Part shown: positions 14,588-23,178 of the stretch, one piece after another
Layout: every line of letters begins with the position of its first letter
Numbering within the stretch: the stretch's first letter is position 1
Assembly: GCA_027490155.1 (NCBI GenBank)
Contig: JAIXYP010000009.1
Location: 124,001-188,000, forward strand
Direction of reading: 5' to 3'
DNA: 64,000 nucleotides
Origin: Cytophagaceae bacterium
Lineage (GTDB): Bacteria > Bacteroidota > Bacteroidia > Cytophagales > Flexibacteraceae
The notes under the pieces: generated by a model
Databases searched by the model: none
Told to the model about the DNA's origin: nothing
The model's input: the letters and a program-made list of their open reading frames with translations, nothing else
Made by a program: the position numbers and the translations under genes

Positions 14588-16426
14588 CTAAGCTTTGAAC
14601 TTTTTAGGTTCTTTACGGCGCCTAACGATGTCCGAGGCTAGATATATCGCTTGGCGGAAACTATTGGCATCTGCTACCCCTTTACCTGCTATGTTGAAGG
14701 CAGTACCATGATCCGGACTAGTCCGAACAACAGACAATCCACCGGTGTAGTTGACACCATCATCAAAGGCAAGTGTCTTGAATGGCCCTAAGCCTTGGTC
14801 ATGATACATGGCCAAAATACCATCAAACTGATTTTGTTGGCCTGCCCCGAAAAATCCATCTGCTGGATAAGGACCTACCACAACCTCGCCAGCCTTAGCC
14901 AGCTTATTGATGAGCGGTATCATGATCTCCAACTCTTCGCGGCCTAACTTTCCAGCTTCGCCAGCATGCGGATTAAGCCCTAGAATGGCGACCCTTGGTT
15001 TCTGGATACCAAAATCTTTCTTGAGGGTCGAAATCAATGTTTTGATCTTATCCTCCAGCAATGGGGTGCTGAGCATCCTAGGTACTTCGGATAGGGGTAC
15101 GTGTGCCGTTGCAAGTGCAATCCTGACCTCTTCGGCCACCATAAGCATTAATCCCTCGTCCGTGCCAAAAGCATGGGCAAAGTACTCGGTATGGCCAGGC
15201 CAAGTAAACTCTGCGGGCATATTGGCCTTGTTGATCGGGGCTGTGACAATGGCATCTATGAGACCAGCTTTGGCAGCTTCGACCGTAGCCTGCATGCTAT
15301 TGTAGGCACATAGGCCGGCCTCTGGTTTGGCTTGGCCGATGGATAAAGCATAATCCTCTGTCCAGACCTCAATCAAGTTTACTTTCCCAAATTTAAAGGG
15401 CTCACCAGGGGCGACTACCCAAAGTAGGTCAGTGGGCAAATCAAGTACTTTGGACCAATGGTCGAACAATTGCTTATTGCCATAGACCACGAGCTGCACA
15501 AGGTCCGTGATGCGCTTGTCACCCGCAATCTGGAGGATGATTTCAGGGCCGATACCGTTAAAATCACCAATGGAAATGCCGATATTCATAAGTGGGCGCC
15601 TGCCAAGGGCATCAATGCTAATTTGGTTCGGTGTTGTGTTTGAGGCGGACTTGTTTGCGTTCGGTTTGTCATCGAAGTCAAAGTAGCTATCGTCTTCTGG
15701 TGCAGCTTTGAAGGCAGGACTTGCATTTCGTCCTGCTTGGCGATCTTGATTGCGGGACTGAGGACGGCTAGATGCTCGGTCCTGGTTCCGATCTGGTCGA
15801 GAATCAGACCTAGAATCTGACCTACGATCTGATTTGCGGTCTGCCTGGCCAGGCCGATCAACACGTTCTGGCCGATCAGATTTACGATCGGATCCACGGT
15901 CATTATTACGACCTTGTCCACGCTCTGGCCTTGTGCTCGGACCGCGTTCGGCTCTGATGTCAGCACTGCCTTCAAATTGCGCCTCTACACTGATATCATT
16001 TTTTGCCTCTGCCTTGACCTCTTGGTTCCGCTGCGGATTTCGCTCACGACCACCATCTCGTCCACCACGATCTTTGTTAGGCTGTCCTCCTCTGCTGCCA
16101 CCGTCACGACCTGTTCTATCCATCCTTATATTATCAGGATTATGAGGTCGGGAGTTGCCATTTGGGTCACCATCCTGTGACGAAGTTCCTCCTTCGGCAG
16201 TAGCTGTAACTTTGCCCTCTATATTTTGGCGATTCGGTCTTGGCCTATCAATGTTTTTATTGTCAGTACCAGCCACACCATCTATTCCATTTAACGGTCT
16301 AGGACCCCGCGAGCGATCTCGATCTCGCCGACTACGATTCCTGTTCTCGTTTCTAGGTCCCTCTGTCCCACCCTGATTGTTGCGTGGAATATCGTTTTGG
16401 TTGCCTTTGTCAGTGCTTTGTTCCAT
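14588..16426 (-). CDS. pdxA: 4-hydroxythreonine-4-phosphate dehydrogenase PdxA with a long disordered Arg/Asp-rich N-terminal extension
   Basis: The C-terminal 330 residues are PdxA, which oxidises 4-phosphohydroxy-L-threonine with NAD in pyridoxal-phosphate synthesis. The domain opens with MNIGISIGDFNGIGPEI (internal ATG at 15589) and carries the metal-binding and substrate motifs WPGHTEYFA, LNPHAGEAGKLG and MYHDQGLGPFKTLAF. Before it, in the same open frame, lie about 280 residues of low-complexity sequence made almost only of R, D, S, N, G, P and Q (short repeats such as DRKSDRRSDSRSDSR), predicted to be disordered. I chose the ATG at 16426; in-frame ATG 16459 and TTG 16471 lie only 12 and 0 bases clear of the divergent gldD start. 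Initiation at 15589 would give an ordinary PdxA. The extension is unusual for this enzyme. Confidence 0.88.
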   Translation of the reverse strand: MEQSTDKGNQNDIPRNNQGGTEGPRNENRNRSRRDRDRSRGPRPLNGIDGVAGTDNKNIDRPRPNRQNIEGKVTATAEGGTSSQDGDPNGNSRPHNPDNIRMDRTGRDGGSRGGQPNKDRGGRDGGRERNPQRNQEVKAEAKNDISVEAQFEGSADIRAERGPSTRPERGQGRNNDRGSDRKSDRPERVDRPGQADRKSDRRSDSRSDSRPDRNQDRASSRPQSRNQDRQAGRNASPAFKAAPEDDSYFDFDDKPNANKSASNTTPNQISIDALGRRPLMNIGISIGDFNGIGPEIILQIAGDKRITDLVQLVVYGNKQLFDHWSKVLDLPTDLLWVVAPGEPFKFGKVNLIEVWTEDYALSIGQAKPEAGLCAYNSMQATVEAAKAGLIDAIVTAPINKANMPAEFTWPGHTEYFAHAFGTDEGLMLMVAEEVRIALATAHVPLSEVPRMLSTPLLEDKIKTLISTLKKDFGIQKPRVAILGLNPHAGEAGKLGREELEIMIPLINKLAKAGEVVVGPYPADGFFGAGQQNQFDGILAMYHDQGLGPFKTLAFDDGVNYTGGLSVVRTSPDHGTAFNIAGKGVADANSFRQAIYLASDIVRRRKEPKKFKA

Positions 16427-16473
16427 ATCTTGGCAGCCCGAAGAAGCCAAGCTTCTCATGCTAAGTCGCAAAT

Positions 16474-18468: not shown

Positions 18469-19173
18469 ATGACAGAACAATATTTCAAGTGGTACTCTCA
18501 GCATCTTGGTATGGACACCGAGATGCTGGTCTTTGGTGACAATGGCTATCCCATTGTCCTTTTCCCGACAAGTATGGGAAAATACTACCAGAATAAGGAC
18601 TTTTTACTATTAGAATCAGTCCGCTGGTGGGTCGAAAACGGCTTCGTCAAGATCTACTGCCCCGACAGCATTGATACCTATAGCTGGTACAACAAAAACA
18701 TCCACCCAGCCGAGCGTGCATTACGCCACAACTGGTACGATAAGATGATCCTTGACGAGGTTGTGGGACGGGCGCGTCACGAAACAGGCCGCCATCAGGT
18801 AGCGATGGCAGGATGCAGTTTTGGCGCCTATCATGCAACCAACTTTGCATTCCGTCATCCAGAACATGTGGGCTATTTGTTCAATATGGGTGGTGGATTT
18901 GACATCAAGATGCAGCTAGACGGTTATTATGATGACAATTGTTTTTACAATAATCCGCCAGACTTTTTGCCCGGTTTGTACCACCCTGCGCTTTTTAACA
19001 TGAAAATCGTACTAGGTGTTGGTGAGCATGATTTCTGCCTAGAGCAGAACAAAAGAATGTCCGCCATCCTTGGTGCCAAGGGGATACCGCATTGGCTTGA
19101 TATCAGGCCGGGGCAGGTGCATGACTGGCCAGCTTGGCGCGAAATGTTTCCGGACTATTTGGCACAAATGTAA
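18469..19173 (+). CDS. Alpha/beta-hydrolase fold esterase-like protein of an amide-ligase cluster
   Basis: A 234-residue cytosolic protein without a signal peptide. The nucleophile elbow is MAGCSFGAYHATNFAFRHP (GCSFG, serine in the centre), and a late histidine sits in PGQVHDWPAWREMFP; an acidic residue in GVGEHDFCLEQ may complete the triad. The length and the opening LGMDTEMLVFGDNGYPIVLFP fit the small esterase family (COG4947-like) that often accompanies ATP-grasp and GCS2 ligases. It is 72 bases upstream of the ATP-grasp gene on the same strand, probably co-transcribed. In this context it may hydrolyse or transfer an ester or amide of the cluster product; that is inference. Confidence 0.78.
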   Translation: MTEQYFKWYSQHLGMDTEMLVFGDNGYPIVLFPTSMGKYYQNKDFLLLESVRWWVENGFVKIYCPDSIDTYSWYNKNIHPAERALRHNWYDKMILDEVVGRARHETGRHQVAMAGCSFGAYHATNFAFRHPEHVGYLFNMGGGFDIKMQLDGYYDDNCFYNNPPDFLPGLYHPALFNMKIVLGVGEHDFCLEQNKRMSAILGAKGIPHWLDIRPGQVHDWPAWREMFPDYLAQM

Positions 19174-19245
19174 ATCTTTAGCGCAACTTGTATTAGTTTT
19201 AACCCAGTATCTTGCTGTTTTGATACTGATTTCCATTACCCAACC

Positions 19246-20379
19246 ATGAAAAAAATAGGTATTTTATTTGGCAAGGAAAGTACATTTCCACAGGCTTTTG
19301 TTGACCGAGTCAATAGCAAAAATATCCCTGGCATCGTTGCAGAGTTTGTCCATATTGACAAAGTGGTACAAGGCGAACTGAGTGAATATGCAGTCATCAT
19401 CGACCGCATTTCGCAAGATGTTCCATTCTATCGTGGATTCCTCAAGAATGCTGCCATCAGTGGGACAGCCGTGATCAACAACCCTTTCTGGTGGTCAGCT
19501 GACGAAAAGTTCTTCAACAATGCCTTGGCCACCAAAGTGGGAGTGCCAGTACCTAAGACCGTCCTCCTGCCTAGCCAAGAGCATCCAGATGATACCAGCT
19601 CCGAAAGTTTCCGGAACCTAGCTTATCCACTAGACTGGCCAGCGATCTTTAACTATGTTGGCTTCCCAGCCTACTTCAAACCCTTTGCTGGTGGTGGATG
19701 GAAGAACGTTTACAAGATCGAGAATCCTGATCAATTCTGGGGTGCATACGAAGAAACTGGCAAGTTGGTCATGATGCTTCAAGAGGAGATCAAATTCGAT
19801 CTTTACTTCCGCTGTTATTGCATCGGTGGTAAAGACATCTTGATCATGCCATACGAACCCCGCAATCCGCACCACCTTCGTTATGTCGTTGAAGGCTATG
19901 AGGCGGATCCTACCCTTTTGGCTACTATCAAGGACTATGTCTTGCGCCTGAACGAAGGTCTAGGCTACGACTTCAACACGGTTGAGTTTGCAGTCCGCGA
20001 CGGGGTGCCTATCGCAATTGACTTCTGCAACCCTGCGCCTGATGCTGATGTCAACTCTGTTGGGCAAGCCAACTTTGACTGGGTTGTCGAGGCAGCAGCA
20101 AATATGGCCATCGAGCGGGCACAAGCAGCCGAGCCTGGCAAGATGAACCTTACATGGGGTACATTTGTTAAGGAAGCAGTACTTGGTATTGGACTGACTG
20201 AAGCAACTGTGAACCAAAGTGGCCCATTACCAAAACGTAAGGCAGCGCCCAAAGCCACAATAGAAGCTGAAACAAAACCAGCTACCGCCAAAAAAGCTAC
20301 CCCTAAGAAGGAGGTTCAGCAGGTAGTGGTTGTGCCGGCCGCAGAGGCCAAAACAAAAAAAGCCACTAGCAAAAAATAG
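19246..20379 (+). CDS. ATP-grasp amide ligase (RimK/D-Ala-D-Ala ligase-like) with an Ala/Lys-rich tail
   Basis: A 377-residue ATP-grasp enzyme. The pre-ATP-grasp opening is MKKIGILFGKESTFPQAFVD. ATP-binding strands are seen in YFKPFAGGGWKNVYK and VMMLQEEIKFDLYFRCY, and metal ligands in NTVEFAV and AIDFCNPAPDAD. These families join a carboxylate to an amine through an acyl phosphate. Residues 325-377 are a basic low-complexity tail (KRKAAPKATIEAETKPATAK and similar), like a histone-H1 end, which is unusual for a small-molecule ligase. It sits between the esterase and the YbdK-type ligase, but two hairpins separate it from the latter. The substrate is unknown. Confidence 0.8.
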   Translation: MKKIGILFGKESTFPQAFVDRVNSKNIPGIVAEFVHIDKVVQGELSEYAVIIDRISQDVPFYRGFLKNAAISGTAVINNPFWWSADEKFFNNALATKVGVPVPKTVLLPSQEHPDDTSSESFRNLAYPLDWPAIFNYVGFPAYFKPFAGGGWKNVYKIENPDQFWGAYEETGKLVMMLQEEIKFDLYFRCYCIGGKDILIMPYEPRNPHHLRYVVEGYEADPTLLATIKDYVLRLNEGLGYDFNTVEFAVRDGVPIAIDFCNPAPDADVNSVGQANFDWVVEAAANMAIERAQAAEPGKMNLTWGTFVKEAVLGIGLTEATVNQSGPLPKRKAAPKATIEAETKPATAKKATPKKEVQQVVVVPAAEAKTKKATSKK

Positions 20380-20382
20380 CCC

Positions 20383-20443
20383 TTTCAGGATACCCTGAAA
20401 ACTAGAATTGACCAAAGACACTTCCGAAACGAGGTGTCTTTGG
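20383..20443 (+). terminator. Tandem hairpins after the ATP-grasp gene, and a description of the 301-base gap
   Basis: Just after the stop, TTTCAGG/CCTGAAA forms a small hairpin. At 20412-20443 the arms CCAAAGACAC and GTGTCTTTGG form a perfect 10-bp stem, probably the main terminator. The rest of the gap up to 20680 shows no gene or clear promoter. Confidence 0.7.
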
Positions 20444-20680
20444 CATTTATAGCCTGCTGCCAAACAAAATATATGTTATTTTAGAGTGCATCGCTCATTT
20501 TGATTGTTAATCTTGCTGATAACAACTAGTTTAGGCCCTAAGGTAACTATCACCACGAAAACAATAGGCCGGAGTCTAGTCAAGTATCACTGCTTCAAGA
20601 TTCTGTCCATCATTCTTAACCAAATTGGCGAACCAACCACAATGTTCGTCAGAGGGAAGCCCCTCCTTAAAACCTGACTT

Positions 20681-21790
20681 ATGGCCCAGACAGTTTACAC
20701 ATTAGGTATCGAAGAAGAGTTCCAGATCATTGACCCAGTGACACGCGAGCTGCGGTCACACATGGAGCAAATCGTGGAAGGTGGAAAAGTCCTGCTCAAG
20801 GAGCAAGTGAAGGCCGAGATGCACCAAAGCGTTGTCGAGGTCGGGACCAACATTTGCCAGAATATAGAGGAAGCTCGCAAGGAAGTGACCTACCTCCGAA
20901 AAACGATCTTAGACCTTGCAAATCAGTCTGGCCTCCGCGTAGCCTCGGCAGGTACACACCCTTTTTCATTGTGGTCTGAGCAGCAAATCACAGATCATCC
21001 AAGGTACGAAGAGATCGTGAATGAGTTGCAGGATGCCGCACGTGCCAACCTTATCTTTGGGCTCCATGTCCATGTCGGGATTGAGGAGCGTGAGCTTGGC
21101 GTCCAGATCATGAATGCAGCTCGGTACTTTTTGCCACACATTTTTGCGCTCAGCACAAACTCTCCATTCTGGGAGGGTCGTAATACTGGCTTCAAGTCGT
21201 TTAGGAGTAAGGTGTTTGACAAATTTCCAAGGACTGGTATCCCAGACTATTTTGGATCAGCAGCCGAGTATGATAGTTACATCAATTTGCTGGTCAAGAC
21301 AGGATGTATTGACAATGGCAAAAAGATTTGGTGGGATATCAGGCTACACCCTTTCTTTGATACACTTGAGTTCCGCGTTTGTGATGTTCAGATGCGTGTC
21401 GAGGAAACTATTGCGTTGGCAGCATTGATGCAGGCTATCGTAGTCAAGATCCACCGCCTAATGCAAAAGAACCTGAACTTCAGGCTTTACCGCCGGGCCT
21501 TAATCAACGAGAACAAATGGCGTGCTTGCCGCTATGGTATGCAAGGCAAACTCATTGATTTTGGCAAACAAGAGGAGGTGTCGGCCATTGAACTTGTATA
21601 TGAGTTGATGGAGTTTGTGGACGACGTGGTCGATGATCTTGGCAGCAGGGATGCCATCAATTACATCCATACCATGATCGCAAATGGCTCGGGGGCTGAT
21701 CGTCAGCTCAGGGTTTACGAAGAGTCGGGAGGTGACCTTAAAGCAGTTGTGGATTATATCATTAGCGAAACGGCCCACGGAGTCCATTAG
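20681..21790 (+). CDS. YbdK/GCS2 family carboxylate-amine ligase (glutamate-cysteine ligase-like)
   Basis: A 369-residue enzyme of the glutamine-synthetase-like superfamily. The diagnostic TLGIEEEFQIID opens the protein, followed by AEMHQSVVEVGT, the metal-binding FGLHVHVGIEE, and WWDIRLHP with LEFRVCDVQMRVEET. Family members use ATP to form gamma-glutamyl or similar amide bonds; YbdK itself has weak glutamate-cysteine ligase activity and an unclear natural role. The length is normal (about 370). Its neighbours, an esterase, an ATP-grasp protein and an ATP-grasp-like protein on the same strand, suggest it catalyses one step in an unknown amide or peptide metabolite pathway rather than glutathione synthesis. 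Confidence 0.87.
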   Translation: MAQTVYTLGIEEEFQIIDPVTRELRSHMEQIVEGGKVLLKEQVKAEMHQSVVEVGTNICQNIEEARKEVTYLRKTILDLANQSGLRVASAGTHPFSLWSEQQITDHPRYEEIVNELQDAARANLIFGLHVHVGIEERELGVQIMNAARYFLPHIFALSTNSPFWEGRNTGFKSFRSKVFDKFPRTGIPDYFGSAAEYDSYINLLVKTGCIDNGKKIWWDIRLHPFFDTLEFRVCDVQMRVEETIALAALMQAIVVKIHRLMQKNLNFRLYRRALINENKWRACRYGMQGKLIDFGKQEEVSAIELVYELMEFVDDVVDDLGSRDAINYIHTMIANGSGADRQLRVYEESGGDLKAVVDYIISETAHGVH

Positions 21791-21984
21791 TATGGGGTAA
21801 ATTGCTGCCTTACCGATTTTGATCCCTTGGTTCCTTCAAACCTTAGATACCAAACTCGGCAGGGGCAAGACAATTTTGTTTATCCTACCATACCTCGCAA
21901 GTGAATATTGGTTGACTTGGAACCAATAAGTTTCCTTGTAGCTACCTCTGTCATATTATTCCTAACAAAAAAACAAGCCTAGGC

Positions 21985-23178
21985 ATGGTCCCAGCAGCTC
22001 GACAGGCATTTAATGCCCAATTTACTGATGCGCAATACGAGGCATACGTTAAGTATCTGAATGATCTCTACAACTATGAAATAGAGTTCAGGATTGCCGA
22101 AACGCCTATTTTTATCCCACGCGATCTTAAGCATAAGGTGGTCAGGGCTGGCGAGCATATCATTGACTTGATCACTAGTCCTGACTTCAAGGCAAGGACG
22201 GACCGGGCAGTACCACAAGGCCTTGAGGTGCCGAACGAAACCCCTCATACCCACTTTTTGGCCATCGACTGGGCCATCAGTACCGATGATGAAGATAACT
22301 TCGCACCAAGGTTGATAGAGCTCCAAGGTTTCCCATCCCTCTATGGTTTTCAGGAGGTTATCAGCCAAGCAGCACTGAAATTCTGGCCCATCCCAGACAA
22401 TTTCGAGTACTTGTTTAATGGCCTCGATACCAGTTCTTATTTGGCATTGTTAGCCAAAGTGATCCTGGGAGAACACGCCATCGAAAATGTAATCCTACTC
22501 GAGATCGAACCTGAAAAACAAAAAACAAAGGTCGATTTCTACGCAATGGAGCAACTAATCGGACTCCGTTCAGTCTGTTTGACGGATGTGATTCTGGAGG
22601 ATCGAAGGCTGTACTACATGCGTGATGGGGTCAAAACCCGCATTAACAGAATTTACAACCGTGTTATTTTTGACGAGTTGCAACAACGGACAGATCTGAA
22701 GCTGGCCTTTGATATGCAGCAAGATGTGGAAGTCGAATGGGCAGGACACCCTGCTTGGTTCTTCAGGATAAGCAAGTACATCCTTCCGATGCTGGAGAGC
22801 GAATTCGTGCCTAAAACTTGGTTCTTGAACGAGTTACCCACGATACCAACCGACCTAGAAAACTACGTCTTGAAACCATTGTTCAGCTTTGCGGGTAGTG
22901 GTGTTTTGGTCAATGTCACCAAAGCTGACATCGAGGCCATCCCAGATCCGGAAAACTGGATCTTGATGAAGAAAGTAAATTATGCTCCAGCTGTGAAGTC
23001 TCTCGATATACCTGTAAAGGTCGAGCTGAGGATGTTGTATTTATGGCCAGATGGTGATGCTAGACCAACGCTCGCTACCAGCCTAGTACGGATGAGCAAA
23101 GGATTGATGATGGGCGTAAAATTCAACAAGAACTTTACTTGGGTTGGTGGTTCTTTAGCGTTCTTTGAGGCTGATTAG
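21985..23178 (+). CDS. Uncharacterised ATP-grasp-like protein of the amide-ligase cluster
   Basis: A 397-residue cytosolic protein that I recognise only in part. The C-terminal third looks ATP-grasp-like: NYVLKPLFSFAGSGVLVNV gives the strand-lysine and glycine-rich turn, and DIPVKVELRMLYLW the later acidic strand; KGLMMGVKFNKNFTWVGG may close the site. The N-terminal part (PHTHFLAIDWAIS, RLIELQGFPSLYGFQ) could be substrate binding. No signal peptide is seen. It follows the YbdK-type gene by 194 bases and precedes purK by only 32, so it may be co-transcribed with purK. It could be a third ligase for the same product, or a divergent protein that lost catalysis. Confidence 0.6.
   Translation: MVPAARQAFNAQFTDAQYEAYVKYLNDLYNYEIEFRIAETPIFIPRDLKHKVVRAGEHIIDLITSPDFKARTDRAVPQGLEVPNETPHTHFLAIDWAISTDDEDNFAPRLIELQGFPSLYGFQEVISQAALKFWPIPDNFEYLFNGLDTSSYLALLAKVILGEHAIENVILLEIEPEKQKTKVDFYAMEQLIGLRSVCLTDVILEDRRLYYMRDGVKTRINRIYNRVIFDELQQRTDLKLAFDMQQDVEVEWAGHPAWFFRISKYILPMLESEFVPKTWFLNELPTIPTDLENYVLKPLFSFAGSGVLVNVTKADIEAIPDPENWILMKKVNYAPAVKSLDIPVKVELRMLYLWPDGDARPTLATSLVRMSKGLMMGVKFNKNFTWVGGSLAFFEAD

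Follow-up and report, generated by a model that had tools for sequence, protein, structure and literature searches.

A conserved amide-ligase gene set of Bacteroidota that probably makes a small amide-linked compound

Amidoligase gene neighbourhoods were reportedly surveyed by Iyer et al. in 2009. The pairing of a class I GATase with an ATP-grasp protein is the CarA/CarB arrangement of carbamoyl-phosphate synthetase, PuuA/PuuD and BtrJ/BtrG are precedents for gamma-glutamyl tagging, and the NAGGN osmolyte system links an ATP-grasp dipeptide-type synthesis to a peptidase. To our knowledge, YbdK has no established physiological substrate, and we know of no gene set of the present kind in E. coli. 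Linked ATP-grasp and COOH-NH2 ligases are said, in PMC4431377, to perform successive ligations in peptide metabolites, and Pederick 2023, as cited in PMC12568646, gives YgiC and YjfC as peptide-spermidine ligases.

The locus described here lies in a 64,000-nt stretch of a Cytophagaceae bacterium contig (the window), where four + strand ORFs at 18469-23178 were verified and all are genuine genes (Table 1). These ORFs and their family and fold matches agreed with a preliminary description of two ATP-grasp proteins, a GCS2 ligase and an alpha/beta-hydrolase on one strand. Overall, the locus very likely represents most of one conserved amide-ligase pathway. Since relatives across much of the Bacteroidota retain the genes together with a fifth partner enzyme, their product is probably a small compound with amide linkages. 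Literature searches on the cluster and related subjects, which did not cover the Iyer 2009 survey, returned no description of the set.

Table 1. Features of the locus, with positions in the window
Feature	Position	Strand	Description
ABH	18469-19173	+	234 aa; alpha/beta hydrolase, PF00756-like
GR1	19246-20379	+	377 aa; predicted RimK/LysX/Ddl-like ATP-grasp ligase
Hairpin, terminator- or attenuator-like	20412-20443	+	13 pairs; between GR1 and GCS; without strong T run
GCS	20681-21790	+	369 aa; predicted YbdK-family (GCS2) carboxylate-amine ligase, NF010039/PRK13515 equivalog
GCS-GR2 slot	21791-21984		Empty in window; GATase or M29 in relatives
GR2	21985-23178	+	397 aa; predicted divergent glutathionylspermidine-synthetase/YgiC/glutathione-synthetase superfamily ligase

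The four genes are adjacent and on the same strand, as their description as lying in a row had it, but they need not form one operon because a 301-nt gap with a hairpin separates GR1 from GCS and a 194-nt gap separates GCS from GR2. The hairpin had a fold z of -5.95 with 0/200 shuffles folding equally well, and it was not among the calls of a terminator scan. The GR1-GCS gap of the window was overlapped only by ORFs of 22-78 aa and held no RiPP precursor gene. In nine other direct pairs measured, GCS and GR2 were ≤7 nt apart or overlapping, while in a congener (L200) the gap resembled that of the window.

Comparison of GCS with family models showed 557 bits against NF010039 (cut-off 371) and 224.9 bits against PF04107 (cut-off 21; E 1.9e-66), and by these matches GCS is a clear YbdK-type GCS2 carboxylate-amine ligase. 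Its columns E11, E12, E13, E46, E53, R221, E230 and R232 were invariant in 32/32 proteins, and we take them to be YbdK-type active-site residues that are likely catalytic. GR1 scored 25 of 143.4 bits on rimK_fam (TIGR00768), below the curated score. Its predicted model matched D-Ala-D-Ala ligases, LysX and RimK-like proteins (Foldseek E ~1e-13 to Ddl/LysX), and the columns K88, K145, E180, E247, D259 and N262, presumably ATP-site residues, were invariant in 34/34 proteins. On its modelled fold and these columns, GR1 is an ATP-grasp superfamily ligase. The three ligase kinds keep their ATP-site or active-site columns and also co-occur, which fits the proposal of an amide-ligase cluster with a gamma-glutamyl or short-peptide product.

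ABH passed the Pfam Esterase model PF00756 at the border (22.0 bits, cut-off 22) and showed no signal peptide on inspection by eye. An apparent catalytic triad of S117 (GCSFG), D188 and H218 was present in the window protein and 17/20 relatives. The apparent catalytic Ser and His were gone in the other 3/20 cluster relatives, and the suggested role of this hydrolase in trimming or transferring the product was not supported. In addition, a second esterase, ABH2, often lay divergently beside ABH.

The window GR2 matched no family model of its own, and PF03738 stayed below the Pfam gathering score. Its predicted structure (pLDDT 93.7) gave YgiC (Z 25.8), YjfC (25.4) and GspS (24.3) as the best VIA-align rows, followed by glutathione synthetases (23.8-23.2). 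The fold match with YgiC covered the whole length (rmsd 3.5, 341 aligned), and YgiC was also the sole PDB sequence match (E 0.011). Among 35 aligned GR2 proteins, 10 matched PF03738 with E values no higher than 0.1, the lowest being 5e-5, and alignment of GR2 against six PF03738 proteins with hhalign produced an E of 4e-6 and a probability of 86.6. According to these models, GR2 belongs, as a divergent member, to the glutathionylspermidine-synthetase/YgiC/glutathione-synthetase superfamily; the preliminary description, which labelled the fourth gene ATP-grasp-like, had overlooked the kinship with GSP synthetase. Foldseek ranked yeast glutathione synthetase first, so the closer kin may be either GspS or GS. 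The D, E and two lysines shared with PF03738 proteins were invariant in 35/35 GR2 proteins. In the same 35/35 proteins, R98 of the PF03738 R-x-D was replaced by A, Q, T or V and E-x-N (N114) by E-x-Q, so the substrate or chemistry of GR2 presumably differs from that of PF03738 proteins.

A search of 148 Bacteroidota genomes showed strong co-occurrence of the four families, with all four genes in 46 genomes, 14 of which kept all four with GR1 and GCS apart. GR2 and GCS were both present in 47 genomes, single in 2 and 5, and both absent in 94 (Fisher p 3e-30, genomes counted as independent). GR1 and GCS were adjacent in 13 families, separated in 18/50 genomes with both, and less than 60 nt apart in 46/62 gaps. 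ABH and GR1 were both found in 58/148 genomes and were adjacent in 28 of these, a count drawn from 28 ABH places beside GR1, as ABH matches elsewhere may be paralogues. In the family of the window, 4/8 GR2 genomes (L201, L202, L204 and L205) had no other core gene beside GR2. The doubt raised in the preliminary description, that the neighbours might be shuffled among relatives, was not borne out: many families retain them side by side, and genomes in which they are dispersed have not lost any of them. Pairwise distances of GR1, GCS, GR2 and GATase correlated over 49 loci (r 0.63-0.85, with no housekeeping baseline) and, as far as such distances go, show a shared history of the four. GR2 was present in cultured genera including Hymenobacter, Dyadobacter, Chitinophaga, Spirosoma and Larkinella (best 80 of 588 relatives), and it matched none of 72,556 plasmid records in a search for plasmid mobility. 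Going by the 46/148 genomes of one phylum and these cultured genera, the set probably yields a common metabolite.

The largest non-core protein cluster occurred at ≤16/80 loci. A Pfam scan of 123 neighbours, hand-picked from a random 145 of 202 with esterase paralogues and some near-duplicates excluded, showed scattered families (M42 6, aminotransferase III 5, DinB_2 3). In two genomes of one family, GR2 was accompanied by a sodium:solute symporter, as a fusion in L024 and as a neighbouring gene in L027. Several known systems were rejected. Canonical glutathione synthesis, the other doubt raised in the preliminary description, does not account for the set, as GshB (TIGR01380) was unmatched in the window genome and exceeded its cut-off in 1/148 genomes. 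Bacillithiol as a link is uninformative because bshC is near-universal (147/148 genomes). PADLOC models of known defence systems matched 0/6 proteins, a result that does not bear on defence systems of a new kind, and a RiPP cluster would require a precursor-peptide gene, which was not found and for which the GR1-GCS gaps are mostly too short.

The set includes a fifth gene, encoding a class I GATase-like protein or an M29 metallopeptidase, which the window locus lacks; the preliminary description had overlooked this partner. Among 65 loci where GCS and GR2 share a strand, the slot held GATase alone in 44, M29 in 3 (L049, L064 and L203), nothing in 10 and other arrangements in 8, and in L206 the M29 gene was one ORF from GR2. 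The window genome has its own GATase on another contig (G000:C59:63147-63917), which scored 37.1 bits against PF00117 (cut-off 22.8). The Cys-His-Glu triad was invariant in 20/20 relatives, with the same motifs present in the window genome's copy, and the nearest proteins were orphan GATase-like proteins. All 40 GATase genomes carried GR1, ABH and either GR2 (30) or GR2b (10), another circularly permuted ATP-grasp distinct from GR2, while 8 of them lacked GCS, which makes GR2 the partner that the GATase follows. It was adjacent to GR2 in 20/30 genomes and to GR2b in 10/10, and overlapped GR2 in 21/83 consecutive pairs, a number that may be overstated by the use of first-start ORFs. GATase was absent from 20/52 GCS genomes and unmatched at E 1e-10 in 18/46 four-gene genomes, which indicates that it is dispensable or replaced in the latter.

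From the observed gene set, its conservation, the folds and the conserved ATP-site residues, we infer the reactions, their order and the product as follows. The pathway would consist of soluble, ATP-dependent amide ligases. GCS would link an amine to the (probably gamma-) carboxyl of glutamate or a similar acid, and GR1 would extend this product by another amino acid or amine, giving a short acid of gamma-glutamyl or peptide-like type. GR2 would then attach an amine, either a polyamine or an amino acid, to the free carboxylate, and the GATase-like cysteine hydrolase, or M29 in some lineages, would hydrolyse the GR2 product again. GR2 and its hydrolase partner would thus be an analogue of the bifunctional glutathionylspermidine synthetase/amidase, while ABH (and ABH2) would act on the product or a precursor. 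That GR2 and GATase/M29 form such a ligase/amidase pair, after GCS and GR1 have built the short acid, is put forward tentatively.

GATase homology fits ammonia supply equally. A CarA/CarB-like, glutamine-dependent amide synthase, in which the GATase would free ammonia and GR2 would make a terminal carboxamide on the GCS/GR1 peptide, is unlikely, even though the same class of GATase is paired with an ATP-grasp protein, invariably accompanies GR2 or GR2b, overlaps GR2 in some loci and keeps its Cys, His and Glu. The two M29-slot genomes among the 148 (G055 and G093) had no GATase match, and M29 in the slot of GATase-less genomes suits a hydrolytic role better; the 18 four-gene genomes without a GATase match and the nucleophile elbow ICHSFQ, instead of the usual G-x-C-x-G-x-Q, also argue against the amide synthase.

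A gamma-glutamyl tag, put on an amine by GCS, carried while the ATP-grasps act and removed by a PuuD- or GGP1-like GATase, is rather improbable: PuuA/PuuD and BtrJ/BtrG set a precedent and the orphan GATase-like relatives would suit it, but GCS and GATase are often found without each other. Nor is a glutathione-like low-molecular-weight thiol probable, where GCS would make gamma-Glu-Cys or similar, GR2 and GR1 would lengthen the chain, and the resulting thiol would serve a DinB-type thiol transferase. This reading draws on GCS2 together with a GS-superfamily enzyme, on ABH2 of L033 fused to a DinB_2/mycothiol-S-transferase-like domain that L076 also has, and on a DinB_2 gene adjoining GATase in L167. 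However, the near-universal bshC means that a thiol usable by DinB is present anyway, and DinB linkage is rare (3/123 scanned neighbours, one being the L033 fusion itself).

Modification of a protein or ribosomal peptide, RimK- or graspetide-like, is very improbable. The GR1 fold is near RimK-like proteins, LysX and the graspetide ligase PsnB, and its C-terminal tail (~residues 314-377), Lys/Ala-rich, disordered (pLDDT <50) and present with differing length in many of the 70 GR1 proteins compared, might be an acceptor; against this, the short GR1-GCS gaps leave a precursor gene no room, and many GR1 proteins have no such tail. Finally, chance neighbours with no common function, which the separated GR1 and GCS and the solitary GR2 of the window's family would allow, are highly implausible given the GR2-GCS co-occurrence, the adjacency in 13 families and the retention of all four genes after dispersal.

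The ligase/amidase reading may extend, though this is doubtful, to a Bacteroidota-wide, unrecognised system in which GCS2, RimK-like ATP-grasp and GSP-synthetase-like ligases would make a peptide-amine conjugate with a GATase-fold or M29 protein as amidase. If so, bacteria that also carry bacillithiol genes would hold a second, reversible peptide-amine pool, perhaps of peptidyl-polyamines.

Compared with known systems, GR2 shares with glutathionylspermidine synthetase/amidase and YgiC/YjfC (PF03738) a whole-length fold (Z 24-26), the invariant D, E and two Lys and an accompanying hydrolase. It differs in scoring below the PF03738 cut-off, and the presumed amidase is a separate class I GATase or M29 gene. 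The superfamily fold is also common to eukaryotic glutathione/homoglutathione synthetase and to Cp1B of E-64 synthesis (PMC12568646), with 10-16% identity to GR2 and nothing pointing to a glutathione product. An M42 peptidase upstream of GATase in ten Chitinophagaceae-type loci resembles the NAGGN arrangement; however, the M42 protein of the loci scored 47 of 398 bits on the NAGGN model, and a class II GATase was not seen in the loci. YbdK (PDB 1r8g) is an unmistakable homologue of GCS (E 4e-66). Linked ATP-grasp and COOH-NH2 ligases, as in the window, are found in the amidoligase neighbourhoods of Iyer et al. 2009, as cited in PMC4431377.

Four consecutive ORFs were found on one strand, as the preliminary description had claimed. 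They lie on the plus strand and encode a PF00756-like hydrolase (ABH), a RimK/LysX/Ddl-like ATP-grasp (GR1), a ligase assigned by sequence to the YbdK family (GCS) and a ligase of the glutathione-synthetase superfamily (GR2). The window corresponds to G000:C41:124001-188000 of a 3.99 Mb genome (69 contigs), and its other genes include GldD, PorP/SprF, PurK and PurL. Together with the relatives of the cluster, these neighbours point to Bacteroidota, perhaps close to Cytophagales. GR1 scored below the RimK-family threshold (25 bits, cut-off 143). A structure search with an AlphaFold model of this protein, at pLDDT 80.4 on average and <50 in the tail, matched D-Ala-D-Ala ligases, LysX, RimK-like proteins and graspetide ligases. 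The tails of GR1 and its relatives are Lys/Ala/Pro-rich, histone-H1-like and very variable in length. ABH barely reached PF00756 (22.0 bits, cut-off 22); its profile matched esterases and the window protein has an apparent Ser-Asp-His triad. The apparent catalytic Ser and His are lost from ABH in the clusters of L060, L061 and L062, which suggests a non-catalytic role in that family, and ABH may be partly non-catalytic. A 13-pair hairpin (fold z -5.95) in the GR1-GCS gap makes a single transcript through the cluster doubtful in this genome, and a scan for promoter-like sites gave chance level (7 found, 7.4 expected).

Coordinates of the cluster and associated features (window positions unless a contig or locus is named)
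Feature	Position	Strand	Remark
PdxA ORF	14588-16471	-	TTG start; PdxA domain at residues 326-612; N-terminal extension of ~290 residues, Arg/Asp/Gly-rich, apparently disordered
Four-gene row	18469-23178	+	
ABH	18469-19173	+	
GR1	19246-20379	+	
GR1 tail	20185-20376	+	
Hairpin	20412-20443		
GCS	20681-21790	+	
GR2	21985-23178	+	
GATase, window genome	G000:C59:63147-63917		
ABH2 (second PF00756 esterase), window genome	C7:89412-90158		away from other core genes
Symporter-GR2 frame	L024:73-2673		
GR2b example	L157:7643-9058		
ABH2 with DinB_2	L033:11963-13522		
ABH2 with DinB_2	L076:2918-4432		

Co-occurrence of the four families, proposed as a check in the preliminary description, was borne out among 148 Bacteroidota genomes (E limits 1e-20; GR2 1e-3; GATase 1e-10). 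ABH was present in 63, GR1 in 60, GCS in 52, GR2 in 49 and GATase in 40, with all four window genes in 46. GR2 and GCS occurred together in 47, GR2 only in 2, GCS only in 5 and neither in 94, with p-values that ignore phylogeny. GR1 and GCS were adjacent in 32 of the 50 genomes having both (13 families) and separated in 18, 14 of which still hold all four families. GCS and GR2 lay ≤1.5 kb apart in 28/47 genomes, and all four genes shared one contig in 20/46, ABH being counted only at places beside GR1. Within the window's family, GR2 was found in 8 of 11 genomes searched for it. By a GR2-based search of the neighbourhood only, the full row occurred in three (the window, L200 and L203), M29 peptidase lay near GR2 in L206, and GR2 stood without adjoining core genes in four (L201, L202, L204 and L205); this patchiness counts against conservation of the set.

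A family-model search matched no family of GR2's own. Its structural model (pLDDT 93.7) gave 23 Foldseek matches at E ≤0.001, all in the glutathione-synthetase/GSP-synthetase superfamily and led by yeast glutathione synthetase, while VIA-align ranked YgiC first (Z 25.8, rmsd 3.5, 341 aligned), followed by YjfC (25.4), GspS (24.3) and glutathione synthetases (23.8-23.2). The sequence evidence agrees with this placement: YgiC was the sole PDB match (E 0.011), 10 of 35 family members touched PF03738 at E ≤0.1 (best 5e-5), and hhalign against six same-phylum PF03738 proteins gave E 4e-6 (probability 86.6). A PF03738 search of the window genome gave no match. When aligned with PF03738 proteins, GR2 shows D95, E112, K264 and K297, whose functional roles are presumed, as invariant (35/35 GR2 proteins). 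The E-x-N motif of the PF03738 proteins reads E-x-Q in GR2, and A, Q, T or V stands where their R-x-D motif has R. GR2 is thus a divergent member of the superfamily, with an ATP site that seems to be retained and changes elsewhere. A sodium:solute symporter and GR2 share a single 867-aa reading frame in L024, and a similar symporter gene lies immediately upstream of GR2 in L027.

Relatives carry a class I GATase-like gene in the slot between GCS and GR2, and 66 of the 80 named loci have a GATase gene. All 40 GATase genomes had GR1 and ABH, 30 had GR2, and the remaining 10 had GR2b, a PF14403 circularly permuted ATP-grasp adjoining both GR1 and GATase in every case and occupying GR2's place. 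GR2b, perhaps an alternative ligase for GR2's step, occurred in 12/148 genomes, the other two being G137 (GR2 also present) and G102 (weak match). Since GCS was absent from 8/40 GATase genomes and GATase from 20/52 GCS genomes, GATase tracks the GR2-type enzyme, not GCS. GATase preceded GR2 in 83/86 places (GCS-GAT-GR2 45, other-GAT-GR2 34, GR1-GAT-GR2 4), loci picked mostly through GR2 and so biased toward that order. A conserved family directly upstream of GATase-GR2 in ten loci (L084, L086, L098, L107, L108, L110, L114, L118, L123, L148), judged M42 aminopeptidase from two members tested, may simply reflect gene order shared within a single clade.

Where GCS and GR2 share a strand (65 loci), the slot is filled by GATase alone in 44 loci and by M29 in 3; it is empty in 10, among them the window and L200, and the remaining 8 show other arrangements. 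The window's GCS-GR2 gap is 194 nt; the other nine direct pairs measured were ≤7 nt apart or overlapping. L203, with the window's flanks (PdxA, GldD, PorP, PurK), carries an M29 metallopeptidase there, so the window lineage probably lost a slot gene. The window genome's GATase lies on another contig (42% identity to the query; PF00117 37.1 bits; motifs ICHSFQ, FHPEAD). Two genomes whose slot is occupied by M29, G055 and G093, gave no GATase match genome-wide at E 1e-10.

What is shown is gene content, folds and residues. The mechanism tentatively favoured is a ligase/amidase cycle, in which GCS and GR1 would assemble a short acid, gamma-glutamyl or peptide-like, for GR2 to join to an amine, and GATase or M29 would cleave the conjugate. 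Replacement of GATase by M29 suits such a hydrolytic role. The chief alternative, held less probable, is that GATase and GR2 instead perform glutamine-dependent amidation; a peptidase could hardly replace an ammonia supplier. A thiol product is a still weaker candidate because bshC is present in 147/148 genomes, even with ABH2 (15/148 genomes) carrying a C-terminal, thiol-transferase-like DinB_2 domain beside the cluster in two loci, L033 and L076 (Hymenobacter).

The gene set was undescribed in the literature searched, which did not include the amidoligase survey cited in PMC4431377. Linkage of amidoligase genes as such is already known, from work cited in PMC4431377.
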